Origin: a virus
Length of the DNA stretch: 53,523 nt
IMG/VR virus record: IMGVR_UViG_3300029319_000067
Coordinates: 1-53,523 of that record
Strand: one strand, 5' to 3'
Positions 1 through 29,523 of this stretch are shown here, in pieces. Position 1 is the stretch's first letter. The number at the start of each line of letters is the position of its first letter. The notes under the pieces are model-generated. The model made no database searches and had not been told where the DNA came from. It saw nothing but the letters and a program-made list of their open reading frames with translations. Position numbers and translations under genes: made by a program.

Positions 1-1984
1 CGCCGGGATACCGAACTCTACCGACGCCTTTGTTTGCGCCAGAAGAAGCAGTTCTTTCAGGTGGTAGTTCTTCTTTATATGCTTTGCCACTACCAGAGGA
101 AATGTCATCCATGTTGTTAGCGAGAAGCGTAATATAGCCTTTGATAAGAACGCCAAAGTCCATTCCAAATGGACCCACTTTATAAACATCTTCGCTTGGA
201 AGGTAAGCCGACGCGCTTAACTCATCTCGTTTGAGATTCTGGTAGTTCTTGATAATGTTTATCATTTCAGCACGTCCACCCCAGTGAACAGTTTTCAGGG
301 AGTTGAGAAATGCTCTATCGGCTAATTTTGCGTAAAGTTGCTTTATGGCTCTGCCAGCCTTGGCGTAGTCTTTTTTAGTTGACCTTCGTGGGACACGCTG
401 ATACCTACTGCTGTCCACATCTGGGTCTTTAAGTGAGACTTTTTCCAAACCCCTAGCAAAACTTGCTCGGGCTTCTTCGTCTTCGTTTAGTTCACTGGCT
501 TTGATCTCACTTGCATCGTATCTGTCGTCACCACCATCGTAGTATTTGTAGTAAGCAGTTGTGCCAACCTCGTCACCAATAAATAAAACTTCTTCCTCAC
601 CAGCATCATCTAACATTTTTACGTTTTTGTGGTTCAAAATAAAGCCCACATCGGCAGCGTCAGCGGCTAAAACAATAGAAACATACTTTTCACCATCTTC
701 TGATTCATCAGAATAAAGATCGACGAAGCTAGAAGCCACGGAGGGGTCGTATGACCAAGAAGTAAGTCCAGAAGGATACCAACTACCTTTAAAAACAAAG
801 TTATCCTTTTTTTGTAGTTTGCCTTCTTCTGGTAGATTGTTTGGGTCTAAAAGCCCCCAAGACATAGCAGTCTTTGCTGGAACAAAAATACCACGGTAAA
901 CTTTACCTGCTGGTGGTTTTAGTTCGTCGTAATAACTGTCAAGTGTTCCTTCATCAGCCATAGCTTGTATTTGTTTTAGTTTGTCGTAAAGTTCTGTTTT
1001 GTTTCTTGTGCTTGTGTTCTTGATAAAGTTTCTCAACTTTGCTACGGTCTTTTGCGACCACCGAAAGCGTTCAAGGTCTGTTTCACCGTCGCCAGCCACA
1101 AAAAGGTCATCACCGTAAGGCTCATCTGGGTCAATGTCATCGTCGCCGGGGTATTCGTTTAGTTCCTCTGGTACATCTTCGACTTTGAGGATTTCCATTG
1201 GCGTTGCAATGATTTCATTCCACAAGGAAGTCTCTGTATCATCAGCGCACAGTGTTTCTAAGTCTGGGCAAATGTTTTCTTCTTCGCCGGGATACTCCAA
1301 GCGATACAGATTGACGGCTTTGCGACCAGTTGACGTAGCAAATGATTTGACATCGCTACGGAATGCTGCACGGACATTGCCTTTGAATGTAATGACTTTA
1401 TCTGAAGTTTCTCTGAAGAATGGCTTGGTCATTACTGTGAAGGCAGATATATCAAAAGCATCGCCTTCGTCAATAGCTCTTTGGATTCTTTTAATACCAT
1501 CTTCAGAAGTATAGTGCTTCAGTTCTAGTGGGTTGTCCAAACCGCCGTAAACTTGTGTTGTGAACTCGTCATCGATGAGAACGTAAGGTTCCATGTCGCC
1601 ACGAGAGTAGAAAAAAGCAAAACGAAGCTTGTCTATGTCTGTGAAATAACTGCCATATTCGCGTTTTAAGCCCCAGAAGCGGTGATTAATAAAATCCTCA
1701 ATAAAATCAATAACATTCTTGCGAGTTAGTAAGTCGTACCTTTCAACTTCTACGTTAAGCTGGAAAGAAAAGAAAGAATTTATTAAATCAACAAACTCAT
1801 CTACGCCTTCGATTTTGCCACCACGGACACTACTGCCTTCTTTTTGAAGCTCTAACATACGCTCAACGAAAAGTTCCCATTCACCCAACGTATAAAATGC
1901 TGAGTCGGGCTTAACGTAGCCTAAAACTTTAACGGTAACATTCTCAGTTAGGAAACGTCGCCAGTTTTGAAATATATTTTTCAT
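1..1984 (-). CDS. Putative ADP-ribosyltransferase, possibly capsid-packaged (C-terminus beyond left edge)
   Basis: The frame is open from ATG at 1984 to the window edge: 661 codons with no stop. It has the R-S-E signature of ADP-ribosyltransferases. R364 lies in V-Y-R-G (about 890-902), T408-S-W-S411 resembles the STS motif (752-763), and E463-E-E465 followed by VLF resembles the ExE motif (590-598). The spacings of about 45 and 54 residues suit this fold. Proteins of this type transfer ADP-ribose from NAD to host targets; T4 Alt is the virion-borne example. The N-terminus MKNIFQNWRRFLTE ends in L-T-E, like T4 capsid-targeting sequences cut by the prohead protease. A hairpin terminator (2003-2029) and a late-motif variant (1990-1999) precede it, and there is no obvious Shine-Dalgarno site. 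The flanking domains are unrecognised. The ART call is motif-based and fairly strong; packaging is inferred. Confidence 0.7.
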   Translation of the reverse strand, partial: MKNIFQNWRRFLTENVTVKVLGYVKPDSAFYTLGEWELFVERMLELQKEGSSVRGGKIEGVDEFVDLINSFFSFQLNVEVERYDLLTRKNVIDFIEDFINHRFWGLKREYGSYFTDIDKLRFAFFYSRGDMEPYVLIDDEFTTQVYGGLDNPLELKHYTSEDGIKRIQRAIDEGDAFDISAFTVMTKPFFRETSDKVITFKGNVRAAFRSDVKSFATSTGRKAVNLYRLEYPGEEENICPDLETLCADDTETSLWNEIIATPMEILKVEDVPEELNEYPGDDDIDPDEPYGDDLFVAGDGETDLERFRWSQKTVAKLRNFIKNTSTRNKTELYDKLKQIQAMADEGTLDSYYDELKPPAGKVYRGIFVPAKTAMSWGLLDPNNLPEEGKLQKKDNFVFKGSWYPSGLTSWSYDPSVASSFVDLYSDESEDGEKYVSIVLAADAADVGFILNHKNVKMLDDAGEEEVLFIGDEVGTTAYYKYYDGGDDRYDASEIKASELNEDEEARASFARGLEKVSLKDPDVDSSRYQRVPRRSTKKDYAKAGRAIKQLYAKLADRAFLNSLKTVHWGGRAEMINIIKNYQNLKRDELSASAYLPSEDVYKVGPFGMDFGVLIKGYITLLANNMDDISSGSGKAYKEELPPERTASSGANKGVGRVRYPG

Positions 1985-2002: not shown

Positions 2003-2029
2003 AAAAAAGAAGGGAGGCTACTGCCTCCC
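2003..2029 (-). terminator. Rho-independent terminator
   Basis: On the minus strand GGGAGGC-AGTA-GCCTCCC is followed by TTCTTTTTT. The 7-bp GC-rich stem and U-tract end the transcript of the 88-residue gene before the ADP-ribosyltransferase gene. Confidence 0.8.
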
Positions 2030-2059
2030 CACTGAAATAAGTTAAAATTTGTTTGGAGA

Positions 2060-2362: not shown

Positions 2363-2845
2363 TTATTGTTTGTACTTTTTCTTGTGGGCTGCTTTTAGTT
2401 TTAAATATTTTGGATTGGTTCTGGCAGTTTTCCAACAATGATAAAATATTGTTGCACTCTTTGCCTTGTCACTTGTTAGTGCGTCCTTTTCTTGTGGCAG
2501 GACAAAGCCCTCGGAATCATACTTCCTTCCGTCGCTATGGTTGGCGTAACGCCTTGCACGGGTAAAACCCATATGAAGGTACTTCTTAGCCATGTCGGCT
2601 CCTACAAAGTCACCCTGATGCAAATAATTGTAGAACATTGATAGGATTGTGCGAGACGATACATCGGCTTCGGCTGGAGTTTTAAATCGCCAGTGCGGCA
2701 AGATCTCACTTTTGTATGGTTGGCAGATCAAAACACCCTGTTGTCCTTTGCCAATGCGGTAAAGTTCAGGTTGTTTTCGATAGTTTACAAGCGGATTCCA
2801 GATTTTTAGATACTCTTTTAGTACCACTTGCTTTCTCCTATGCAT
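2363..2845 (-). CDS. DUF4385-like phage protein
   Basis: 160 residues. The order of motifs resembles the DUF4385 family: an early W-N-P-L and P-E-L-Y-R-I-G-K-G-Q-Q-G-V-L, then Q-P-Y-K-S-E-I-L-P-H-W-R-F-K-T-P, then D-F-V-G-A-D-M-A-K-K and R-A-R-R-Y-A-N-H. Function is unknown; relatives are common in phages. The ATG at 2845 overlaps the upstream stop (ATGCATAG). A GTG at 2827 has a better AGGAG site, so the true start may be six codons later. The C-terminus is rich in lysine. The family call is from remembered motif order. Confidence 0.7.
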   Translation of the reverse strand: MHRRKQVVLKEYLKIWNPLVNYRKQPELYRIGKGQQGVLICQPYKSEILPHWRFKTPAEADVSSRTILSMFYNYLHQGDFVGADMAKKYLHMGFTRARRYANHSDGRKYDSEGFVLPQEKDALTSDKAKSATIFYHCWKTARTNPKYLKLKAAHKKKYKQ

Positions 2846-2993
2846 GTCTCAGGCTCTGCGCGGGTACCCAACGCCACTTGCCGTAGTCCCACAAAACAAA
2901 AACTTTGTCATCGCGAACACTAAGCACAAGACCACGCCAGTCCCGAGTCTGGGATATAACTAGATCTCCGCGTTTGAAACTTCTTTTTAACAT
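2838..2993 (-). CDS. KRGDLV-family small protein
   Basis: 51 residues. It has F-K-R-G-D-L-V at residues 6-12, then G-L-V-L-S-V and a W-rich end, the pattern shared by a large paralogous set in this window. The predicted fold is a small beta barrel of SH3/KOW type (inferred from the alternating V/W strands). It is the last KRGDLV member of the 2.8-5.4 kb block, just before the DUF4385-like gene. Confidence 0.65.
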   Translation of the reverse strand: MLKRSFKRGDLVISQTRDWRGLVLSVRDDKVFVLWDYGKWRWVPAQSLRHA

Positions 2994-3035
2994 GACTCAC
3001 CGATCGTCGAAAAATTTTTCTCCAAAATCGCCGTT

Positions 3036-3218
3036 CTAACGCTCACAATCGCCCTGCGGGGTAAAGGGTTCCAAAGCGTGCATCCATGCTCGACCCTTTC
3101 TTTGACTGTGAATCCACCAGACGCCGCACGTCCATCTATCACCTTGTGCTTCAAGAACGTCCAACACCAAACCAATCTTTGAAGTTCCGGTAAGCCGAAC
3201 CAAATCACCGCTTTTCAT
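3036..3218 (-). CDS. KRGDLV-family small protein
   Basis: 60 residues starting MKSGDLVRL. GGAG lies six bases before the ATG, and the ATG shares bases with the upstream stop (ATGA), so translation is probably coupled. It has I-G-L-V-L-D-V and tryptophan-rich strands as in its neighbours. Function unknown. Confidence 0.75.
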   Translation of the reverse strand: MKSGDLVRLTGTSKIGLVLDVLEAQGDRWTCGVWWIHSQRKGRAWMHALEPFTPQGDCER

Positions 3219-3418
3219 CGAATGCTCCAATGAAACCTTTGTTGCACAATGTCTGATCCGATGTAACGAATCTTGTATACCTTTGTGTTAGCGAGTGCGG
3301 CGCGACCAATACATTTTGTTTCAATCTTTGTTGGGTCTCTCACTTCTAGGACAATAGCTTTGTGCCACTTGTTCGCAAAAAAGTTAGCTTCAACCAAATC
3401 GCCTCGCTTAAACTTCAT
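3215..3418 (-). CDS. KRGDLV-family small protein
   Basis: 67 residues starting MKFKRGDLVEANFF, followed by A-I-V-L-E-V and Y-K-I-R-Y strands. The ATG at 3418 overlaps the upstream stop as ATGA and has GGGAG nine bases away. It belongs to the same coupled array. Function unknown. Confidence 0.75.
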   Translation of the reverse strand: MKFKRGDLVEANFFANKWHKAIVLEVRDPTKIETKCIGRAALANTKVYKIRYIGSDIVQQRFHWSIR

Positions 3419-3591
3419 CGAACAAGCTCCCATTTTTCAGGTTCCCAACCCGATACGCTAAAATATGTGTCTTTGAACTTCCAGTGCCAAAAATGGTAAC
3501 AACCACCGGGAGTATCATCTACCATACCAAGAAAGACAATGCTCTGTCCAGTCTTGATATTACGAAATAGGTCACCGCGCTTCAAGCTCAT
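3415..3591 (-). CDS. KRGDLV-family small protein
   Basis: 58 residues starting MSLKRGDLFRNI, then I-V-F-L-G-M-V and several Trp/Tyr residues. The start lies inside the last 20 bases of the upstream gene. A longer reading from 3708 is possible but would overlap that gene heavily and lacks the family N-terminus. Function unknown. Confidence 0.7.
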   Translation of the reverse strand: MSLKRGDLFRNIKTGQSIVFLGMVDDTPGGCYHFWHWKFKDTYFSVSGWEPEKWELVR

Positions 3592-3790
3592 ACTCCCAAA
3601 AAGAATAAGTTGCTTTGCACTCGGGCGAATAGCAACGCCATGCAGCGCAGTCCCGTAGTGGTTCCACAAGCATAACCAACAAGCGTCCTTCAGGGTCATT
3701 GCCGCCACAGGAGCGCTCTTCCCCGTGAGCTAGACGTTGCCGTGAATACACTGCGTGGGGGGATGCCAACATTATGTCACCGCGTTTCAT
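3572..3790 (-). CDS. KRGDLV-family small protein, divergent
   Basis: 72 residues beginning MKRGDIMLASPH. The middle is divergent, but the end (Y-S-F-W-E-Y-E-L-E) fits the final strand of the family. GAGG lies four bases before the ATG. It overlaps the next gene by 20 bases. Function unknown. Confidence 0.7.
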   Translation of the reverse strand: MKRGDIMLASPHAVYSRQRLAHGEERSCGGNDPEGRLLVMLVEPLRDCAAWRCYSPECKATYSFWEYELEAR

Positions 3791-3971
3791 TGTGCCTCAC
3801 ATCTTCTTCAGTTTCCCAAACAACCCATTCACCAAGTGTGGTTGGTTTTGTTCTTCGCACCTGAACATAGGGTGTGCCTTCTTCATCAGGTTGACATTGT
3901 AGTACAACGCCGGTCCAAGGAAGAAAACTTTGGTTCCTTGAGTGAACAAGGTCTCCGCGTTTAAACTTCAT
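3777..3971 (-). CDS. KRGDLV-family small protein
   Basis: 64 residues starting MKFKRGDLVHSRNQ, then W-T-G-V-V-L-Q-C and Y-V-Q-V-R strands. The ATG overlaps the upstream stop (ATGA), with AAGG upstream. The phrase W-T-G-V-V-L-Q is shared with the next gene (3968-4153), which points to recent tandem duplication. Confidence 0.75.
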   Translation of the reverse strand: MKFKRGDLVHSRNQSFLPWTGVVLQCQPDEEGTPYVQVRRTKPTTLGEWVVWETEEDVRHNETR

Positions 3972-4153
3972 TTCACAACCTTGCATACATCAGCCGGAAC
4001 CCAATCTTTATATGAACCGCCGCCGTCATCGGGTTCGGTCATGCGGACATAAAGCCATTCACCGTCACTCATAACTTGAAGCACAACGCCGGTCCAAACT
4101 TTGTAAGACCATTTTTTGACATCTGTGCGAATAAGGTCGCCTTTCTTAAACAT
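3968..4153 (-). CDS. KRGDLV-family small protein
   Basis: 61 residues starting MFKKGDLIRTDV, then V-W-T-G-V-V-L-Q-V and W-L-Y-V-R-M. The ATG at 4153 has GAGG upstream and is preferred to the TTG two codons earlier. It is the closest paralogue of 3777-3971. Function unknown. Confidence 0.75.
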   Translation of the reverse strand: MFKKGDLIRTDVKKWSYKVWTGVVLQVMSDGEWLYVRMTEPDDGGGSYKDWVPADVCKVVK

Positions 4154-4325
4154 ACGCAAGCCTCAACTGGTGGGAGTAATAAACTCCCCTGTGTGAGTTG
4201 GTCCACGCCACAACCCAAGCGACATTCCTGTCACCCAGCTTTTTAATAACAACCCCACGCTTCTTTTGCTGCTCTGGAGTGAGGCTATCTCCAGGTTTTA
4301 GTTTGACGTAATCGCCAATCTTCAT
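4146..4325 (-). CDS. KRGDLV-family small protein
   Basis: 59 residues: MKIGDYVKLKPGDSL, then R-G-V-V-I-K-K-L and V-A-W-V-V-A-W strands. The ATG at 4325 overlaps the upstream stop, and the stop at 4146 overlaps the next start. Gene order, length and strand pattern place it in the same paralogous set. Function unknown. Confidence 0.7.
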   Translation of the reverse strand: MKIGDYVKLKPGDSLTPEQQKKRGVVIKKLGDRNVAWVVAWTNSHRGVYYSHQLRLAYV

Positions 4326-4498
4326 CGAACATTCTCCAACTTACGAATAGGTTGCCAAGCATCCAGACCATCGATTTTGTCTTCAACAGCCCAGCGAATC
4401 TTGACCCACTCGCCAGAGGCTTCTTCGCCAATAACGAGACCTGTGCGCTGGGGAGTACACCAACCGGGAATAGTTTTTACTAAGTCACCACGTCTCAT
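4322..4498 (-). CDS. KRGDLV-family small protein
   Basis: 58 residues starting MRRGDLVKTIPGW, then T-G-L-V-I-G-E and W-V-K-I-R-W. The ATG at 4498 overlaps the stop of the upstream 51-residue gene (ATGA), so the longer reading from 4546 is rejected. Function unknown. Confidence 0.75.
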   Translation of the reverse strand: MRRGDLVKTIPGWCTPQRTGLVIGEEASGEWVKIRWAVEDKIDGLDAWQPIRKLENVR

Positions 4499-4650
4499 TT
4501 GCGCTTCCGTTCGGCTAAGGGTCGAATGCGTTTGAAAGTTTCCCAATCCATGATTGGCACAACGGCTTTGACCGCGTGAAATGCTTCCATCCGTGTCATG
4601 GTGGGTTCAGTTACTTTAACAATAATGTGAAGCAGTTCTGTGATTTTCAT
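4495..4650 (-). CDS. Hypothetical small helical protein
   Basis: 51 residues (MKITELLHIIVKV...ERKRK), helical with a basic tail, not of the KRGDLV type. Both ends overlap neighbouring genes by four bases (ATGA), which strongly supports translation. No function can be assigned. Confidence 0.65.
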   Translation of the reverse strand: MKITELLHIIVKVTEPTMTRMEAFHAVKAVVPIMDWETFKRIRPLAERKRK

Positions 4651-4844
4651 TGGTCATTCTCTAACTGATGGGGCAGAACCCATGTCCAAGTCTTTTTGCA
4701 AAGCACCATACCCGCCTCGCGGTACTGAGTCTCAAGGTCTTCAGGCTGGTGCCAGTAGTTGGGGTACTCATCCATGCCACCGTAAATGTCACGGGGGTAG
4801 TCATTGTACCGCTCATATCCATTTTCGTCGTATCGTCTAAACAT
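4647..4844 (-). CDS. Hypothetical Tyr/Asp-rich small protein, first gene of its operon
   Basis: 65 residues rich in Tyr, Asp and Trp (MFRRYDENGYERYND...). GAGAGGAA precedes the ATG, and a sigma-70-like promoter lies at 4868-4895. It leads the operon of coupled small genes down to about 2.4 kb. No family recognised. Confidence 0.75.
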   Translation of the reverse strand: MFRRYDENGYERYNDYPRDIYGGMDEYPNYWHQPEDLETQYREAGMVLCKKTWTWVLPHQLENDQ

Positions 4845-4867
4845 GTTTTCCTCTCAAGAACAACTGT

Positions 4868-4895
4868 ATATTACCAAATGTGCTGCAAATGTCAA
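4868..4895 (-). promoter_or_regulatory. Sigma-70-like promoter with upstream box
   Basis: Minus strand: TTGACA (4895-4890), 16-bp spacer, TAATAT (4873-4868). The box AATCTTTACATTTGTTCACA lies upstream at 4918-4940. The -35 and box overlap the last codons of the preceding gene (4892-5095). Confidence 0.75.
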
Positions 4896-5095
4896 GCACT
4901 TTCGCGATAATTTTTCCAATCTTTACATTTGTTCACATTCTCTAGTTCGCCCCGTGAGTACCACAAAACAGTGTCACAGTTTGCCCAACGGACGTGGTAA
5001 ATATGACCGTCAAAGGTTTCCGCGTCTTCGACGCGGACCACAACACCAACTGGCATTGGATCAAGAGCGCGTCTTACCAAGTCACCCTTTTTCAT
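4892..5095 (-). CDS. KRGDLV-family small protein
   Basis: 67 residues starting MKKGDLVRRALD, then V-G-V-V-V-R-V and Y-H-V-R-W-A-N strands, ending W-Y-S-R-G-E-L-E-N-V. This is a very typical member. Its last codons are the promoter box of the next operon, so the C-terminal K-C-K-D-W-K-N may reflect promoter constraint. Function unknown. Confidence 0.75.
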   Translation of the reverse strand: MKKGDLVRRALDPMPVGVVVRVEDAETFDGHIYHVRWANCDTVLWYSRGELENVNKCKDWKNYRESA

Positions 5096-5388
5096 CGAGT
5101 CACCACTTTATATCGACGGTTCTCCCACAATCGCCAACCTGTTGAGGAGATGGCTGTTCCGTCTTCTTTCTTAAACTTTTGTTTCTTGTGTGACACAAAG
5201 AGTTCTTCACCGTCAGGCATACGAATCAAATATTGTGAGCCACGGACGTGCTCGACAACCAGTGCGCCACGAAACGGATGTTGCGTGATAATGGAGCCTA
5301 CGAGCGCTTCGCGCTCGCGCTTAAATCGCAATCGGTCTTCGGCGGTTAACATGTTTCTACCATAGTGACGTGATCGACGTTTTGCCAT
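5092..5388 (-). CDS. Hypothetical basic protein, possibly barrel-like
   Basis: 98 residues. A basic N-terminus (MAKRRSRHYGRN) and a helix precede strands V-G-S-I-I-T-Q, A-L-V-V-E-H-V and Q-Y-L-I-R-M-P-D-G-E-E-L-F-V, reminiscent of a KOW/Tudor barrel. GAGAGGG precedes the ATG. It is the first gene after the promoter at 5413-5441. Distant kinship with the KRGDLV set is possible but not shown. Confidence 0.7.
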   Translation of the reverse strand: MAKRRSRHYGRNMLTAEDRLRFKREREALVGSIITQHPFRGALVVEHVRGSQYLIRMPDGEELFVSHKKQKFKKEDGTAISSTGWRLWENRRYKVVTR

Positions 5389-5412
5389 ATTTCCCTCTCA
5401 AAGTACATAACC

Positions 5413-5441
5413 TTTTTACCACAGTGTGGGTCAATCGTCAA
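5413..5441 (-). promoter_or_regulatory. Sigma-70-like promoter with tandem upstream box
   Basis: Minus strand: TTGACG (5441-5436), 17-bp spacer, TAAAAA (5418-5413). The box at 5464-5486 on the plus strand reads CTTTACATTT then CTTAACATTT, a direct repeat with a 10-bp period. It sits in the divergent region shared with the only rightward gene. Confidence 0.65.
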
Positions 5442-5492
5442 GCATTTTTAGCGATTTTTTAATAATCTTTACATTTCTTAACATTTGTGCCT

Positions 5493-5502
5493 AACTATTT
5501 AT
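5493..5502 (+). promoter_or_regulatory. Late-promoter motif AACTATTTAT, plus strand
   Basis: Exact AACTATTTAT on the plus strand, 30 bases before the ATG at 5533. This is the only plus-strand gene, so the motif turning with the gene supports a directional promoter element. Confidence 0.55.
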
Positions 5503-5532
5503 TTTAAACATCAACCATGGAGGGTAACATGG

Positions 5533-5817
5533 ATGGAAGCGCTAAACGGATTAGTTGAATACGGTATTTTAGGAATGTGGACCTTATCATTGCTTGTGAG
5601 CAACCACTCAATGAGAGGCAACTTTCAACAACGCTACGACGACCTTAACAAAAATGTCGTTGACGTTGTGAAAAAGAATAAGGAACTTGCTGAAGAAAAT
5701 CAAGAGAAGCTGGAAAAGGCTCTTGATAAGCTTGACCAAGGTCTCGACACAATGAAACAGAAGTACCTAGAAGACAAGCTGCGAGCCGAAATGCAGTTCA
5801 AAGACACTCGCGTGTAG
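5533..5817 (+). CDS. Membrane-anchored coiled-coil protein (only rightward gene)
   Basis: 94 residues. One membrane segment at about residues 7-23 (L-V-E-Y-G-I-L-G-M-W-T-L-S-L-L-V) precedes a long charged coiled coil at about 30-90. GGAGGG lies upstream; the in-frame ATG is the second of two (5533), since the first (5529) soon meets a stop. It has its own late motif and a terminator. The layout suits a holin, spanin or membrane-tethering protein, but no family is recognised. Confidence 0.75.
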   Translation: MEALNGLVEYGILGMWTLSLLVSNHSMRGNFQQRYDDLNKNVVDVVKKNKELAEENQEKLEKALDKLDQGLDTMKQKYLEDKLRAEMQFKDTRV

Positions 5818-5835
5818 GTAAATGCTTAACTCGCG

Positions 5836-6150
5836 TTAGGAGGGATTGTCGCCCGAAGGGCGACGGTCCTTTTTTATTTCCCTAAACCATGACCAATGCC
5901 TGAGTGACACTTTGCCGTCGTCCCGCAAGTGTTTAACAAATGGTACAGGCACGTCTTTCGGCATGTCGTACTCTAATCTAATAATGATGCATCTCACTAG
6001 CCTGTTCTGTGATGCGCCATTGTCCACCTTTACGAGACACATCATGCCCCGCTTGATATGCAAGGGTGTGGCAAACCGTTGGGATATTCCGTCTCCCTCT
6101 TCTATACGGTCTCGGACGATCCTGCGCTTATATTTTTTCGATGTCTTCAT
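5836..6150 (-). CDS. Divergent KRGDLV-like protein
   Basis: 104 residues with a basic N-terminus. I-K-R-G-M-M-C-L-V-K-V near residues 32-42 resembles the family core, and it ends R-H-W-S-W-F-R. The same W-S-W ending occurs in 6300-6485. The last codons (K-D-R-R-P-S-G-D-N-P-S) are encoded by the terminator hairpin of the opposing gene. Function unknown. Confidence 0.65.
   Translation of the reverse strand: MKTSKKYKRRIVRDRIEEGDGISQRFATPLHIKRGMMCLVKVDNGASQNRLVRCIIIRLEYDMPKDVPVPFVKHLRDDGKVSLRHWSWFREIKKDRRPSGDNPS
5848..5875 (+). terminator. Terminator at convergent junction
   Basis: GTCGCCC-GAA-GGGCGAC, extended by GGATT/GGTCC pairs, is followed by six T on the plus strand. It ends transcription of the rightward gene. 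It lies inside the last codons of the opposing gene (5836-6150). Confidence 0.85.
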
Positions 6151-6307
6151 AATACGTTAAAACTATGCGCGATAAAGGTGTCCACCAAATGAAATATAAT
6201 CCTGAACGATGTGGTTCGGGGGCTGTGCGTACAACAATGCCACGGAAGTAACCCCGTGGCTGTGTCGTTCCATTTGAATATTTTACTAAGTCACCCCTTT
6301 TAAGCAT
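6128..6307 (-). CDS. KRGDLV-family small protein
   Basis: 59 residues starting MLKRGDLVKYSNG, then R-G-I-V-V-R-T and Y-F-I-W-W strands. The start lies just inside the end of 6300-6485, and the end overlaps the next gene by 23 bases. Its family N-terminus and tandem position support it. Function unknown. Confidence 0.65.
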   Translation of the reverse strand: MLKRGDLVKYSNGTTQPRGYFRGIVVRTAPEPHRSGLYFIWWTPLSRIVLTYYEDIEKI

Positions 6308-10758: not shown

Positions 10759-10980
10759 TCATTTTTGTTTCCATTGTTTCATGCACCACTCAAAGCGATG
10801 CTGTCGATGGGCGTCAGTAGGACACCACTTTTGTGCCACGTTTAGGCACTTGGACACCTGTTCATCATGACGTTGAGTATCCGTGGTGCCGTTTGACAAC
10901 ATTAGACCAATGCCCATAAGAACACCGCCTAGCCAAACAACGCCAAATCCTACCAAATCACTTTTCCAGTCCCATTTCAT
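10759..10980 (-). CDS. Small membrane protein with cysteine-containing domain
   Basis: 73 residues. A Gly-rich membrane helix spans about 9-29, then a soluble part with three Cys and several His/Trp (V-A-Q-K-W-C-P-T-D-A-H, F-E-W-C-M-K). It could be exported with a disulfide or bind metal. The stop lies one base before the next start. No family recognised. Confidence 0.65.
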   Translation of the reverse strand: MKWDWKSDLVGFGVVWLGGVLMGIGLMLSNGTTDTQRHDEQVSKCLNVAQKWCPTDAHRQHRFEWCMKQWKQK

Positions 10981-11183
10981 TTTTTACTCCTTTTATTAAT
11001 ATTTTTTCTATGTTGTTTCCAACTAACTAGATCTGAAGCTACCTCAATGGTATCATTCATTCCTTTCCACAACACTCGATAAATCGCTGGCTCATCCAGT
11101 CCTTGCGAAAGCACCTCAAGTATCATGCCGGTGTCATTCATGATAGAGTGAACAACAAGGTCTCCTCGTCTAAATCTGTGCAT
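10977..11183 (-). CDS. KRGDLV-family small protein
   Basis: 68 residues: MHRFRRGDLVVHS, then T-G-M-I-L-E-V and Y-R-V-L-W-K strands, with a basic C-terminus. The stop overlaps the next ATG (ATGA). Function unknown. Confidence 0.75.
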   Translation of the reverse strand: MHRFRRGDLVVHSIMNDTGMILEVLSQGLDEPAIYRVLWKGMNDTIEVASDLVSWKQHRKNINKRSKK

Positions 11184-13774: not shown

Positions 13775-13999
13775 TCAGCCTCGCCGTAAAAACTCTTTCG
13801 CGATTATATCAACACCATCGCTTCCTAGTATTTTAGCAAAGTGTTTATTATCTGTTAACAAAAATATCACTTTCTGTCCAGCATACTTGTGTCTCTCATA
13901 TTCGCTATGAATACTTTGGGTGAGCCATGGTGGATCAAGACGTTCAGCCCATTGAACGACTTCTAACAGTTCTCCCTTTTCAAAGGTTTCTTCAAGCAT
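13775..13999 (-). CDS. Hypothetical small protein
   Basis: 74 residues, mixed alpha/beta (K-V-I-F-L-L-T-D-N near the middle). The ATG overlaps the stop of the zeta-like kinase gene (TAATG), suggesting coupled translation. If the kinase is toxic, an antidote role would be worth testing, but nothing in the sequence shows it. Confidence 0.65.
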   Translation of the reverse strand: MLEETFEKGELLEVVQWAERLDPPWLTQSIHSEYERHKYAGQKVIFLLTDNKHFAKILGSDGVDIIAKEFLRRG

Positions 14000-15321
14000 T
14001 ATTTACTTTTGCCACGGTAACAATCTTTGATGCCCTGGGATTTACAACTGGCTTTCTGAGTAAAGCCCATCTTTTTACATGGAGTTCTTTTGCAATATGC
14101 CGGTGTGGCTCCACGTCTATCTTCTTTTTCATCTAGAGGATAAACGGAGTCATCTAGCATCGGCTCATAATATGGTGGTGGAAACTTTAATTTTTTTTTA
14201 AGCTTCTCGTAAACTCTCTCGGCAAGTTCATCTTTTAGTTTGTCTGTAACCTGAGATGCTGTGCGTGCGGCAACGCCTTTTGCCTTGCCTCTTGCAGCCT
14301 GTCTAATAATGCTGCCAAGTGTTTCAAGCGACTTTTCTAAATCAATCTCACCAGTAATGGCTCCGATGCGACTAACTGCTTTCTCAATCGGTGCAACGTC
14401 TAGTGCAGCCGGGGCATCCATAGCGACAGTGTAAAAGTCTGTCAACTCATTGCCGAGTCTACCTTTTGAGATTTTAAGAAGCTCTTTCATGCCATCATAC
14501 AGATCCTTGCCCACTGGGTTTGGAACTGACATTGGCTTTAGAAAGTCTGATACTCCTTTACGGAGGTCGCTGATAACTCTGTCCATCTCCTCGACAGTGA
14601 CATCAACATCGCCCTTTACGTCCTCAACTTTAGAGCGTGCCTTGGCGATTAGGTTACCCTCATCATCGCGAACATCTTCGGTACCGAGATTGAACACGTT
14701 AACAAATGGTTTGCCGTCTGGATTTAAAACTTTTGCATATTGCTGTCCAGCAGCCCAGTTGTCGTATGCTTTGTCTTGGATTACATTCTTATTGTAGTCA
14801 TCCCAGATTTTACCTGTGAGTTCTCTACCTACTGTTCTTTCTCTGGCTTGATCCCTTGCGACTGATGTTTCTCTGGGTACGAAAACCTTGATAATGCCAA
14901 TGTCGTATCCGAGTTCAATTAGTTTTTCTAGGACAGGGATTATTCTTTCTGGTTCTTGCGCGGTTGTGTCGATGTAAAGCGGTTTGGCGCGGTTAATGTA
15001 ACCTGCGGCTTTCGACATTGTACCAACCTTCGCAATGTTGCGAAGCTCTGCTTGGGCTTTGCCAACTGGGTCATCTGCGTCCTGAACAAACTTTAGAGAC
15101 ACATCGAACTTTGGAAACAGGTATTCAATAATGTCGTCGGGGTTAAGAGTGAAACGCATCACTTCAGAGGGCACACCCAAGAGTCTCTTTGAGGTGAAGC
15201 TTTTACCAGCGCCTGCTGGTCCTGTCATTAGGATTGCTTTAAAAGGGTGTTTCTGTTTTGCGATTGAAACTTCTTGGAGCAGGTACTGTTCTACCATCTC
15301 GCGGATTAGTTTACGTTTCAT
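13999..15321 (-). CDS. Zeta-toxin-like P-loop kinase with capsid-targeting-like N-terminus
   Basis: 440 residues. MKRKLIREMVEQYLLQE ends in L-L-Q-E (14-17), like T4 capsid-targeting peptides. The P-loop G-P-A-G-A-G-K-S is at 34-41, followed by L-N-P-D-D-I-I-E. That N-P-D pattern and the later D-T-T-A-Q-E resemble zeta toxins and related kinases. A long helical region follows. The end is Cys-rich (P-A-Y-C-K-R-T-P-C-K-K-M), a short tag I recall from other phage proteins. Zeta toxins phosphorylate UDP-N-acetylglucosamine; the substrate here is unknown. A late motif lies 19 bases upstream. Confidence 0.75.
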   Translation of the reverse strand: MKRKLIREMVEQYLLQEVSIAKQKHPFKAILMTGPAGAGKSFTSKRLLGVPSEVMRFTLNPDDIIEYLFPKFDVSLKFVQDADDPVGKAQAELRNIAKVGTMSKAAGYINRAKPLYIDTTAQEPERIIPVLEKLIELGYDIGIIKVFVPRETSVARDQARERTVGRELTGKIWDDYNKNVIQDKAYDNWAAGQQYAKVLNPDGKPFVNVFNLGTEDVRDDEGNLIAKARSKVEDVKGDVDVTVEEMDRVISDLRKGVSDFLKPMSVPNPVGKDLYDGMKELLKISKGRLGNELTDFYTVAMDAPAALDVAPIEKAVSRIGAITGEIDLEKSLETLGSIIRQAARGKAKGVAARTASQVTDKLKDELAERVYEKLKKKLKFPPPYYEPMLDDSVYPLDEKEDRRGATPAYCKRTPCKKMGFTQKASCKSQGIKDCYRGKSK

Positions 15322-19626: not shown

Positions 19627-21201
19627 TTACAACTTTTTTTCCACTATTCCAAAGTTTGTTGTTATCAAAGTCCCTGCTGCTGAAGCTGCGTTCTGCAATG
19701 CACAGCGAGTTACTTTCAGTGGATCAATCACACCTAGTGAATAATAGTCTACCATGGTGTGCGAATCAAAACAGTATCCCTGCCCTTCCTCAGATTTAAT
19801 TATCTTTTGCTCTACCAAGTCTGCGGATTCACCAGCGTTTTCAGATATTTGCCGCACAGGTGCCCGTATAGCTGCGAGAACTATTTCGACGCCTCTTTGT
19901 TGCGTTGGATTGTCAACTTCCGTTACAATCGATTCTGATGCGCGTAGGAGTGATGTTCCACCACCGGCATGTACGCCTTCTTGTTGTGCTGAACGAACTG
20001 CTTCAAGAGCGTCTTCAATGCGATGCTTTTTCTCAATCATCTCCACTTCAGTCGCAGCACCAACTCTAATGATGGCGATTCCTGAAGCTAGTCTAGTGAT
20101 ACGCTCTTGTAGAGTCGTGCAAGCTTGGATAGAGTTTGACTCATCAGCGATTTGAACTTTTAAGTTTTCTATATGTTTCTCTACTTGTTCATAGTCAGCC
20201 TTCCCGCCAACGATTGTAGTTGCATGTTTAGTAATGTCAATAGACTTTGCAACACCAAGGTGCTCCATTGTGACACTTGTTAGGGGCATACCAGACTGTC
20301 GAGAAACAAATGTTCCACCTGTGGCGAGCGCAAGGTCTCCCAAAATGGAGCGCCTTTCTTCACCGTAACGTGGGGCTTTTACAGCAACCACCTTCATCGA
20401 ACCGCGAACTGCGTTCGCAATGAGTGCGGCTAACATTTGTCCCTCAACTTCATCGGCTATGACGACCAGAGGTCTTCCGTCTCGTGCCACTTTCTCAAGG
20501 AGGGGAAGGAGGGAATCAACGGTTGAGAGTTTGTGATCCGTTATAAAAAACAACGGGTCGTCATATTTAACAGCCTGTCGCCTTTCATCGGTAACAAACT
20601 GTGTAGAGTAATAACCTGTGTCAAAAATAAAACCTTCAACAAGGTCAAGTGAGGTATCGAGAGAACGAGCTTCCTCAATGGTAATCGCGCCGTCTCGACC
20701 AGTTTTATCCACCGCTTCGGCAATGAGTGTGCCAATAGCCTTGTCTCCGTTAGCGGAGATAGTTGCAATGTGGTGGATATCTTCTTTTGACTGAACAGGT
20801 CTTGCGCCTTGTTTCAGTTCAAGAACAATCTTTTCTACAGCTTTATCGATGCCGCGCTTTAGTTCCACGGGGCTCTCACCTGCTGCAATAAACTTTTGCG
20901 CCTCAGAAAAGATTGCACGAGCGAGAACGGTAGCTGTTGTGGTACCGTCTCCAGCTTGACTGTTAGTTCTCTCTGAGGCTTGTTTAATAACTTGTGCGGC
21001 AGCTTGCTCAAAGGGGTCGTCTAAATCGACGAACTGAGCAACTGTTACTCCGTCTTTTGTAATGATTGGGCTTTTGCCGTGTTGGTGTAGCAGGACGTTT
21101 CTTCCCTTTGGTCCTAATGTTGATGCTACGTTATCTGCGAGTTTATTAACTCCGCTTAAAATCTTTTGTTGTAAGTCCTGACCGTTGTCATAGTGTTTCA
21201 C
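19627..21201 (-). CDS. groEL: Chaperonin GroEL (Hsp60)
   Basis: 524 residues, near the usual 545, lacking the Gly-Gly-Met tail. The ATP-binding A-G-D85-G-T-T-T-A-T-V is present, as are L-G-P-K-G-R-N-V-L and K-D-G-V-T-V-A near the start. It should form a folding cage for capsid or other phage proteins; most phages supply only a co-chaperonin. The start is GTG with GGAGGGAAC. TATAAT lies about 25 bases upstream, with no clear -35. A GroES-like gene is at 37779-38054. Confidence 0.96.
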   Translation of the reverse strand: MKHYDNGQDLQQKILSGVNKLADNVASTLGPKGRNVLLHQHGKSPIITKDGVTVAQFVDLDDPFEQAAAQVIKQASERTNSQAGDGTTTATVLARAIFSEAQKFIAAGESPVELKRGIDKAVEKIVLELKQGARPVQSKEDIHHIATISANGDKAIGTLIAEAVDKTGRDGAITIEEARSLDTSLDLVEGFIFDTGYYSTQFVTDERRQAVKYDDPLFFITDHKLSTVDSLLPLLEKVARDGRPLVVIADEVEGQMLAALIANAVRGSMKVVAVKAPRYGEERRSILGDLALATGGTFVSRQSGMPLTSVTMEHLGVAKSIDITKHATTIVGGKADYEQVEKHIENLKVQIADESNSIQACTTLQERITRLASGIAIIRVGAATEVEMIEKKHRIEDALEAVRSAQQEGVHAGGGTSLLRASESIVTEVDNPTQQRGVEIVLAAIRAPVRQISENAGESADLVEQKIIKSEEGQGYCFDSHTMVDYYSLGVIDPLKVTRCALQNAASAAGTLITTNFGIVEKKL

Positions 21202-25318: not shown

Positions 25319-25798
25319 TTATCTCGTAAACTTTTCTTCTTGACCTTTTAGGTCCACATCATAAGTGGTTTGTTTTCCATCACCGAACGAGTCTGTGCGG
25401 AAGTCATCTTTCCTCATCATTGTGATGATGACCAAACGGTCTGGTCCCTTTCTCATGTCCAACTTCGCTACTATGTTGAGTGCAGGTTGGTTGCCCTGTT
25501 TTGCACGGACGTGAAATGCTTCGCCGTTGGTTATCTCTCCATTGGCAAAGTCGTCTAATATTTGGGGTAAAGCGCGGTCAAGTGCTCTAACAACTGATTG
25601 GCGACTAATCTTACCAAGCCTTTGTCCACCTGAACCACGGGCACCGACATGTCTCCTCGACCTTTCCTCAGCGTGTTTAGAAGCAATAACTTTTAAGTTA
25701 TCAATATCAATAGCATACGTATCACCCTCAAAGGAGTCATACTGCGTATCTTCTGCTAAGAAATGCTGGAAACGAGAAAGGATTTCCTTGTACTGCAT
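25319..25798 (-). CDS. Possible BECR-fold toxin with capsid-targeting-like N-terminus
   Basis: 159 residues. MQYKEILSRFQHFLAE ends in F-L-A-E (13-16), like a capsid-targeting peptide. A domain follows with S-K-H42-A-E-E-R46-S-R-R, a helix, A-L-N-I-V-A-K-L-D and L-V-I-I-T-M-M. The order H-x3-R, helix, then two strands recalls BECR ribonuclease folds (RelE/DUF4258 type). A late-motif copy ends only three bases before the ATG, with no Shine-Dalgarno site. The toxin idea is a fold guess; packaging is inferred from the N-terminus. Confidence 0.6.
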   Translation of the reverse strand: MQYKEILSRFQHFLAEDTQYDSFEGDTYAIDIDNLKVIASKHAEERSRRHVGARGSGGQRLGKISRQSVVRALDRALPQILDDFANGEITNGEAFHVRAKQGNQPALNIVAKLDMRKGPDRLVIITMMRKDDFRTDSFGDGKQTTYDVDLKGQEEKFTR

Positions 25799-26968: not shown

Positions 26969-27733
26969 TTAGCCAAGATTCTTAGCAAGTCTACGCTTGA
27001 GGCTTTCTTTGACGAGTCTCTTTTGAACTCGACGTGTTACCTCGGCAACGATTTCTTCTAGAGCTTCGTCCATCATGTCATCGTCAGCGTCTGCCATATC
27101 CTCTGCGGCGGCTTCCATATCATCATCAGCATCAGCTTCATCTTCTGCTGCATCTTCTGCTTTCTCTTCGGCTTCGCCTTCATCAGACTCAACCTCAACA
27201 GCGACACCAGTCTCGTCTTCGATTGCAGCAGCGATTGCGTCAACCAAGGCTTCAACCTTGTCTTCCATGGAATCGTCACCCTCGTGGGCAGCTTCTTCCA
27301 TTTTGTCGTGCATGGCTTCATCCATGTCATCGTGAGCACCTTCTTCCATTTTGTCTTCGTGTGCTGCTTCTTCCATCTTATCTTCGTGGGCGGCTTCTTC
27401 CATCTTGTCGTCGTGCATACCTTCGGAGCAGTGTGCTTCTTCCATTTCTTCATGGGCACCCTCTTCCATCTTATCGTCATGCATTCCTTCTTCCATGCCG
27501 CGCTTTTCTTTATCATCTTCGTGGGCACCTTCTTCCATGCCACGCTTTTCTTCGTGAGCGCCTTCTTCCATCTTGTCGTCGTCGCCACGCTTTTCTTCCA
27601 TAGGCTCTTTGTGTCCACGCTCTTCCATCTTCTCGCCGCGTTTCTCACCTTCGGTAAGAACTTCAGCATCAGCGGAAACGTAGCCACGCCAAGATTCAAG
27701 AAGAACCTTCATGTCTTTGTTATCTCTTTTCAT
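26969..27733 (-). CDS. Acidic His/Met/Glu-repeat protein, possible prohead core component
   Basis: 254 residues. The N-terminus has L-L-E-S-W-R-G-Y-V and V-L-T-E (25-28). About residues 30-150 consist of degenerate repeats such as D-K-M-E-E-A-A-H-E. An Asp/Glu/Ala-rich part follows, and the end is a basic helix (R-R-V-Q-K-R-L-V-K-E). T4 prohead core proteins are similarly acidic. The repeats put many His and carboxylates together, so metal binding is another possibility. A late motif lies 33 bases before the ATG. Confidence 0.75.
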   Translation of the reverse strand: MKRDNKDMKVLLESWRGYVSADAEVLTEGEKRGEKMEERGHKEPMEEKRGDDDKMEEGAHEEKRGMEEGAHEDDKEKRGMEEGMHDDKMEEGAHEEMEEAHCSEGMHDDKMEEAAHEDKMEEAAHEDKMEEGAHDDMDEAMHDKMEEAAHEGDDSMEDKVEALVDAIAAAIEDETGVAVEVESDEGEAEEKAEDAAEDEADADDDMEAAAEDMADADDDMMDEALEEIVAEVTRRVQKRLVKESLKRRLAKNLG

Positions 27734-28503: not shown

Positions 28504-29523
28504 TTACTTCCTCTTAATATGGGCTGAGCTTTCTATTTGGCTCGCGGGAGATTGACGGACCCACTCTGCACGAGCTTGTAGTTCTTTGATATTCCTACAG
28601 CCTGAATATGATAAACCTGAGCGGATTCCCTTATCCAACCCCTCCAAGACCGTTTGCAATGAGCCTTTGTAAGGAACTGAATATGATACGCCCTCAAGTG
28701 ATGAGACTCTACCTCGCCAAGCATGTTGCGCTGCCGCAGAAGCCATGCCACGGTATTGCTTTCTCAGTTCCCCATCAGGTGTGCTAAATACTCGACCAGG
28801 GGCTTCGTCTGTTCCTGCAAGGAGCGATCCCAACATAACAGCATCAGCGCCAGCAGCAAGAGCCTTAACAATATCACCCGAGTTTTTAATGCCGCCATCT
28901 GCAATGATTTTTGCATCTCGGTCTGATTTGGCGCATTGGAATATTGTTTCAAGCCCAGGAACACCGTGTCCCGTTTGTATTCTTGTAGTGCAAATACTGC
29001 CACCTCCAATATTACATCTAATAGAATCAGCACCCCAATCAGCCAAATCATTGAAGCCCTCCACTGTTGCCACGTTGCCAGCCATAATGTGAAAGTCGTC
29101 TGGCAAGTTGTTACGTAAGGTCTCCAAGGCTTCTTTCATAAGAATACTATGACCGTGGGCAACATCAACACAAATAAAATCTACACCGACACCAAAGAGG
29201 GACTGTGCTCGTTCCAAAAAGTCTCCAGTCACTCCGACAGCAGCGCCTACTAAAGTATCTTCCTCTGCTGATATAAGAGACTCGACGATAGCTACCTGTT
29301 CCTCTACGGTGTTGTAGCGATGGACAACTGATGTTCCACCGTAAGCAGACATGGTGGCTGCGGTATCTTCCTCAGTCACAGTGTCCATTGGGGATGAGAT
29401 GACAGGAAAAGTCAACTTCAGTCCTGCTGAAAGGTCTGTATCTAAGCGGACCTCTGACCTGCTACGAATATCTGAATATTGAGGCGCTAGAAGCACGTCA
29501 TCGTAAGTTAAAACTTCTTTCAT
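28504..29523 (-). CDS. guaB: IMP dehydrogenase / GMP reductase family enzyme without CBS domain
   Basis: 339 residues, a TIM barrel. L-T-Y-D-D-V-L-L-A-P opens it as in the family; the active-site loop is G-G-G-S-I-C178-T-T-R. The phosphate site is A-D-G-G-I, and R-G-M-A-S and E-G-V-S-Y-S-V-P-Y-K-G follow. CBS domains are absent, so allosteric control is likely lost. IMPDH makes XMP for guanine nucleotides; GMP reductase runs the other way. The flap (Y-R-G-M) favours IMPDH but does not decide it. GGAG precedes the ATG. Confidence 0.9.
   Translation of the reverse strand: MKEVLTYDDVLLAPQYSDIRSRSEVRLDTDLSAGLKLTFPVISSPMDTVTEEDTAATMSAYGGTSVVHRYNTVEEQVAIVESLISAEEDTLVGAAVGVTGDFLERAQSLFGVGVDFICVDVAHGHSILMKEALETLRNNLPDDFHIMAGNVATVEGFNDLADWGADSIRCNIGGGSICTTRIQTGHGVPGLETIFQCAKSDRDAKIIADGGIKNSGDIVKALAAGADAVMLGSLLAGTDEAPGRVFSTPDGELRKQYRGMASAAAQHAWRGRVSSLEGVSYSVPYKGSLQTVLEGLDKGIRSGLSYSGCRNIKELQARAEWVRQSPASQIESSAHIKRK

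Follow-up and report, generated by a model that had tools for sequence, protein, structure and literature searches.

Organization of the gene at the left edge of the window

We analysed a 53,523-nucleotide stretch of viral DNA (IMG/VR record IMGVR_UViG_3300029319_000067, positions 1 to 53,523; the window in what follows) and concentrated on a gene that is cut by its left edge. The gene starts with an ATG at position 1984 of the minus strand and runs down to position 2 without a stop codon, encoding 661 amino acids, and the plus strand of the same region contains many stops. The original prediction had described a gene open to the edge, on a strand it did not name, that a simple list of open reading frames would miss; the gene is real, and it appears only when open ends are permitted. 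Its closest relative, on contig G001, is 92% identical across the chain, and module D of that protein has about 72 further residues until the stop codon. The window protein therefore continues beyond the left edge. In G001 the stop is followed by a leader-SAM-lyase gene, and the same order is predicted for the left flank of the window.

Comparison with relatives indicates that the protein is a 14-residue leader followed by at least three modules, namely B, a putative ADP-ribosyltransferase (ART) designated C, and D, joined at LxE triplets (Table 1). The earlier picture of a single large ART with a T4-Alt-like N-terminus thus gives way to a multi-module chain whose seams resemble prohead-protease sites. 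In the most probable reading, its product is an effector polyprotein that a T4-like phage targets to its capsid; the chain would be cleaved inside the prohead and injected along with the DNA.

Table 1. Positions of the features discussed in the text (residue numbers refer to the protein of the edge gene).
Feature	Position	Strand	Basis or remark
Leader-B-C-D chain gene	2..1984	minus	661 codons, C-terminus past the left edge; layout compared with relatives
Leader, residues 1-14 (MKNIFQNWRRFLTE), capsid-targeting-like propeptide ending LTE	1943..1984	minus	comparison with relatives; low pLDDT
Module B, residues 15-277, ends LNE 275-277	1154..1942	minus	confident compact fold, no fold match
LNE 275-277, seam B/C, predicted prohead-protease site	1154..1162	minus	BLAST match to the A-C-E protein of G002 starts at 275
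Module C, residues 278-501, candidate ART	482..1153	minus	motifs, conservation
R364 (YRG), predicted NAD-binding arginine	893..895	minus	invariant in alignment
TSWS 408-411, predicted S-T-S-like motif	752..763	minus	invariant in alignment
E463-E464-E465, ExE motif	590..598	minus	outer two glutamates invariant
LNE 499-501, seam C/D, predicted prohead-protease site	482..490	minus	BLAST match to stand-alone D of G002 starts at 499
Module D, residues 502-661 and beyond	2..481	minus	stand-alone leader gene in relatives
Intrinsic-terminator-like hairpin	2011..2030	minus	between the upstream gene and the chain gene
Zeta-toxin/AAA_33-type kinase, N-terminus MKRKLIREMVEQYLLQE, possible further leader gene	13999..15321	minus	Pfam
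Protein starting MQYKEILSRFQHFLAE, leader-like	25319..25798	minus	no Pfam match
Protein with internal start MKVLLESWRGYVSADAEVLTE, same leader type	26969..27733	minus	no Pfam match

Module borders and seams

The modules occur in several arrangements: leader-B-C-D in the window, A-B-C-D in G001 (truncated on the left by the end of the contig) and A-C-E in G002, G003 and G005. Modules B, D and E are also found as stand-alone genes behind leaders ending LNE, LEE or INE. The leader and module B of the window protein match a stand-alone gene of G002 up to residue 270 by BLAST, and the points at which the matches of the following modules begin, residues 275 and 499, are each the leucine of an LNE triplet. 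The same pattern was observed when relatives were compared with each other. Between G001 and the A-C-E chain of G002, the homology of module A ends on the glutamate of LNE/LTE (167/327), and that of module C starts on the leucine of LNE/LTE (428/325). Module E homology starts on the leucine of LTE (549), and likewise behind MKNFINE in stand-alone E. In a NUDIX-kinase fusion, compared with a stand-alone kinase starting MKKWKQFLKEAITE, the seam lies at most 3 residues from IAE/IYE. At six seams, the homology breakpoints are thus 0-3 residues from an [LI]xE. This triplet occurs 30 times in 3113 residues, which gives a rough chance of 8e-8 for all six seams, a value to be taken as a guide only, since the seams share modules and represent fewer than six independent events.

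In the model of the whole chain, module B is compact, with most blocks at a pLDDT (predicted local distance difference test) of 80-96, and it ends at about residue 275, adjoining the LNE. No fold match to module B was found in PDB or BFVD with the 661-residue model as query, which contains much disorder and may hide a match. Uncultured viral contigs yielded at least 129 relatives of module B (L177-L256 among them), and 50,697 phage records yielded none. As to an embedded metallopeptidase domain, a feature of many polyvalent proteins, module E carries an HExxH-type motif (HEIVH/HELVH) with no Pfam match above the cut-off; nothing of this kind was seen in the portion of the chain that the window covers.

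The same seams could be read in another way, in which the protein is packaged and trimmed of its leader but delivered as a single uncut multidomain chain, that is, as a polyvalent protein, the LxE triplets being leftovers of gene fusion. ART domains occur in known polyvalent proteins, some of which are delivered whole (PMC5512222; PMC9503650). Moreover, the BLAST match between G001 and stand-alone B extends into the leader by 11 residues, which is what a leftover of fusion would do. At the other seams, however, the [LI]xE triplet alone is kept in each arrangement and the neighbouring residues vary, and we regard delivery of an uncut chain as unlikely.

A candidate ADP-ribosyltransferase in module C

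The reading of module C as an R-S-ExE ART is supported by motif, order and conservation. The residue numbers of the original prediction (Y363-R364-G365, T408-S409-W410-S411 and E463-E464-E465) proved exact. In an alignment of 7 sequences, two of which are a paralogue at about 30% identity, R364, TSWS including S409 and S411, E463 and E465 are invariant down to 29-30% identity. The motif proposed as E-E-E is better written ExE, the middle residue E464 being E, K or R among the sequences. The R-S-ExE triad, whose loss in close homologues would have spoken against an ART, is kept in every relative found. An invariant triad with a drifting middle glutamate is what an R-S-ExE ART would show, and is not proof of the fold. 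Among 4401 open frames in the collected loci, the ordered expression R...TSxS...A..F...ExE, composed after the protein had been seen, had 9 matches, all of them to the module C domain or its paralogue; 100000 shuffles of that domain gave 0. In ARTs of the R-S-E class the arginine lies on strand 1, the S-T-S-like motif on strand 2 and ExE on strand 5. In both structure models the predicted elements follow the order strand(YRG)-helix-strand-helix-strand-...-strand, with low confidence in the placement of the strands.

Several results weigh against the assignment. Module C has no match in Pfam or PHROGs, and a sequence search of PDB returned no ART; such a profile match would support membership of the superfamily, which by fold does not require it. 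In hhalign comparisons with T4 ModA, with ModB and with Alt (its C-terminal 330 residues) the probability was near 0, and homology to these T4 enzymes is not supported. The Alt-like N-terminus of the original prediction holds in kind, as a short propeptide ending LxE, the profile comparison with the ART part being the only one made with Alt. Structure prediction, proposed earlier as a check, left the fold of the domain unclear: modelled alone from 7 sequences, module C reached a pLDDT of 56 with no Foldseek match, and in the whole-chain model it is mostly below 50, again with no fold match. Neither prediction yields a clear domain, so that the case for an ART is one of motif, order and conservation. 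The same results would fit module C lying outside the ART superfamily, with R, TSWS and ExE coincidental in another fold, an explanation compatible with any other reading of the chain. The right order and spacing of the motifs, their invariance at 30% identity, the strand/helix order in both models, and the presence in the same cluster of another leader protein that Pfam assigns to ART-PolyVal make such a coincidence unlikely.

Relatives of module C were found on only a handful of contigs of the viral collection, deeper searches included, with none in bacterial genomes by two short patterns and none of note in phage records. A joint alignment by MAFFT that took in module D together with the paralogue came out misplaced and was dropped. 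The impression by eye that modules A and B look like other ART types (VYHY and HYT motifs) is without support and is not claimed.

The leader and its cargo

The leader is a short N-terminal propeptide ending (L/I)xE and detachable from the domain that follows it. In relatives, the separate module genes carry their own MKxLxENWxxFLxE leader, and the DNA pattern for MKxxxENWxxFLxE was found in at least 120 contig stretches of the viral collection, in front of unrelated proteins of effector type. Pfam analysis of 84 distinct leader proteins among the matches listed identified S-adenosylmethionine (SAM) lyases (PF23780; 3 proteins, of which the two scanned singly exceed the cut-off), zeta-toxin-type kinases (2), GNATs (2), an ART-PolyVal, a protein kinase, an M23 peptidase, a tRNA-ligase phosphodiesterase-type domain and a nucleotidyltransferase. 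The presence of the leader on SAM lyases suggests that these are delivered in the virion. Some other genes of the window may belong to the same set (Table 1). A second leader-like start, MKITKSQLRKIIKEE and its variants, ending IxE, precedes several small proteins of G007 (C1 2907-3789, 67963-68418 and 95250-95540; L145, L148 and L149).

Since the search pattern itself demands LxE, leaders that do not fit it were counted separately: 88 of these 112 have [LI]xE at residues 12-20, compared with 5-13 in later control windows. As a test free of leader selection, relatives of module B were collected via motifs inside B. Many of the 62 distinct relatives are leaderless and start at the domain, and the forms with a leader have [LIV]xE at the domain start or at most 2 residues from it. 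The choice of start codon leaves a few of the leaderless calls ambiguous, and the leader of L207 (G032), scored as leader-bearing, is of another type. Among long contigs, a somewhat wider pattern detected further leader genes in 7 of 9 contigs scored leader-bearing for B and in 0 of 18 scored leaderless (Fisher p 4e-5), p-values serving here as guides because contigs of one lineage with shared gene order are not independent. A further point against our interpretation is that the likeness of the leader to T4 capsid targeting sequences is one of layout and not of letters.

Records of named phages share part of this pattern. The leaders of SAM-lyase relatives there are unrelated, and [LIF]xE is kept at the edge of the domain; the triplets before the S/K-S-[LI]-x-R start are LGE, LSE, LNE, INE and FNE, and their glutamate could partly belong to the domain. 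In Microcystis phage Mel-JY01 the relative begins MQFKQYILGE, followed by SSLSRI, and a leader-bearing relative in Vibrio phage K566 begins MKKFNEFANELAE, followed by AVND. Module A relatives have LQE, LKE, VTE, LAE or LEE at this place, and some are leaderless. The ENW-type leader pattern was present in none of the three records checked (Microcystis, Vibrio and Salicola phages) and the protease in all three; these phages were thus rejected as members of the leader lineage, their common feature being the LxE rule only. Mel-JY01 also has three close module-A-like genes (L264:12013-14455) whose starts end LLQE, LLKE and LVTE, apparently a tandem duplication.

Prohead protease and capsid protein in related contigs

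Contig G006, which encodes module B, also encodes a T4-type head maturation protease, a portal, a terminase and a major capsid protein. The protease matches PHROG_207 and is 34% identical to T4 gp21 over 173 residues (6e-24), and it retains the HP and SSRGLGS motifs. Close to the position of FLTE in T4 gp23, the gp23-like capsid protein shows LLKE or LLRE. G007, with modules A and B, and G020, with module D, encode proteins related to this protease, to the portal and to the capsid protein. Of 23 contigs, mostly leader-derived, 10 carry the protease, as do 18 of 27 contigs with module B. The window contig has 40 proteins in common with G003, at a mean identity of 75% and in largely the same order, and replication genes in common with G007 and G020. 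These shared proteins indicate that the window belongs to the same wider group.

This link is open to objections. No copy of the protease turned up on G001, G003 or G004, and neither the protease nor a gp23-type capsid protein was seen in the window, itself a fragment, so that the connection runs via G006, G007 and G020. In addition, the protease is equally common in contigs with leaderless module B, most long ones included. It is therefore a condition for the mechanism that permits the leader without explaining it, and not its marker.

The leader might instead be a signal for membrane, another compartment or tail docking, on proteins newly made during infection, and its predicted short helix (residues 2-13, poorly placed and of low pLDDT in the whole-chain model) is like many localisation signals, but the LxE at its end and at the seams, the occurrence in the same group of contigs of a T4-type protease and an LxE-type capsid protein, and the early-entry type of the cargo make this quite improbable.

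Proposed mechanism and comparison with known systems

For a capsid-targeted polyprotein, the following course can be proposed. By analogy with T4, the 14-residue leader would bind the prohead core and bring the chain into the prohead. There, a gp21-type protease is predicted to cut after the glutamate of LTE14, LNE277 and LNE501, which would remove the leader and free B, C and D as separate proteins. The three would be ejected together with the DNA, and module C, judging from its motifs, may, right at entry, ADP-ribosylate a target of the host, probably on arginine, with B and D acting alongside. The earlier claim of a virion-borne enzyme is strengthened by the leader, the LxE sites and the protease of the relatives, packaging itself being predicted from sequence.

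Among known systems, the T4 internal proteins and the polyvalent proteins offer the nearest ideas. In the passages of PMC9026906 and PMC5694885 that treat them, T4 capsid targeting sequences are short N-terminal peptides of the same layout, and gp21 removes propeptides from head proteins. Alt and IPI-IPIII, according to the same passages, have a short N-terminal propeptide ending in a gp21-type site, as the window gene does, and Alt is an ART carried in the head whose C-terminus is also cut by gp21. T4 has one effector per gene, whereas here several modules share a gene with sites between them, and the leader letters differ; module C and Alt give no profile match. Polyvalent proteins of phages and conjugative elements carry several enzyme domains per chain, commonly ARTs, and are thought to enter with the DNA (PMC5512222; PMC9503650). 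Two or more effector-type domains per chain mark such proteins; in the B-C-D, A-B-C-D and A-C-E chains several modules are joined, with a predicted activity for C only. Release of parts of polyvalent proteins has been ascribed to a metallopeptidase domain within the chain (PMC5512222), while the seams described here point to the head protease, and modules in the window group alternate between fused and stand-alone leader genes. The ejection proteins of giant phages such as SPN3US and phiKZ are head proteins trimmed after glutamate by a gp21-type protease, as proposed here, but with another motif (AxE, SxE) and long propeptides, and the passages on them in PMC5694885 do not describe effector polyproteins. 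None of four leader variants was found in the open-licence literature searched, where no paper brings together phage, polyprotein and internal head protein.

Other genes in the window

A run of short minus-strand genes (2838-6307 and 10977-11183) shows KRGDLV variants near the start, apparently a family of small paralogues; examples are 2838-2993, 3215-3433, 3968-4159, 4322-4546 and 6128-6307. The window also encodes a GroEL-type chaperonin (19627-21201; Pfam Cpn60_TCP1, E 1.4e-64) and an IMP dehydrogenase/GMP reductase-type enzyme (28504-29523; Pfam IMPDH, E 2.6e-106).

Implications for the phage lineage

The chances seem evenly balanced that, in a large and mostly uncultured T4-like lineage, a single portable leader directs a changing arsenal of effectors to the head, and that polyproteins arise there through recombination at the codons of protease sites, one chain being cut into several injected enzymes in the prohead. 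If this is true, the phage makes a polyprotein that is cut by its own head protease, and the leader together with the LxE seams would offer a way to list, from sequence only, those proteins of no assigned role that a phage injects on entry; SAM lyases and other likely counter-defence enzymes would be among them.
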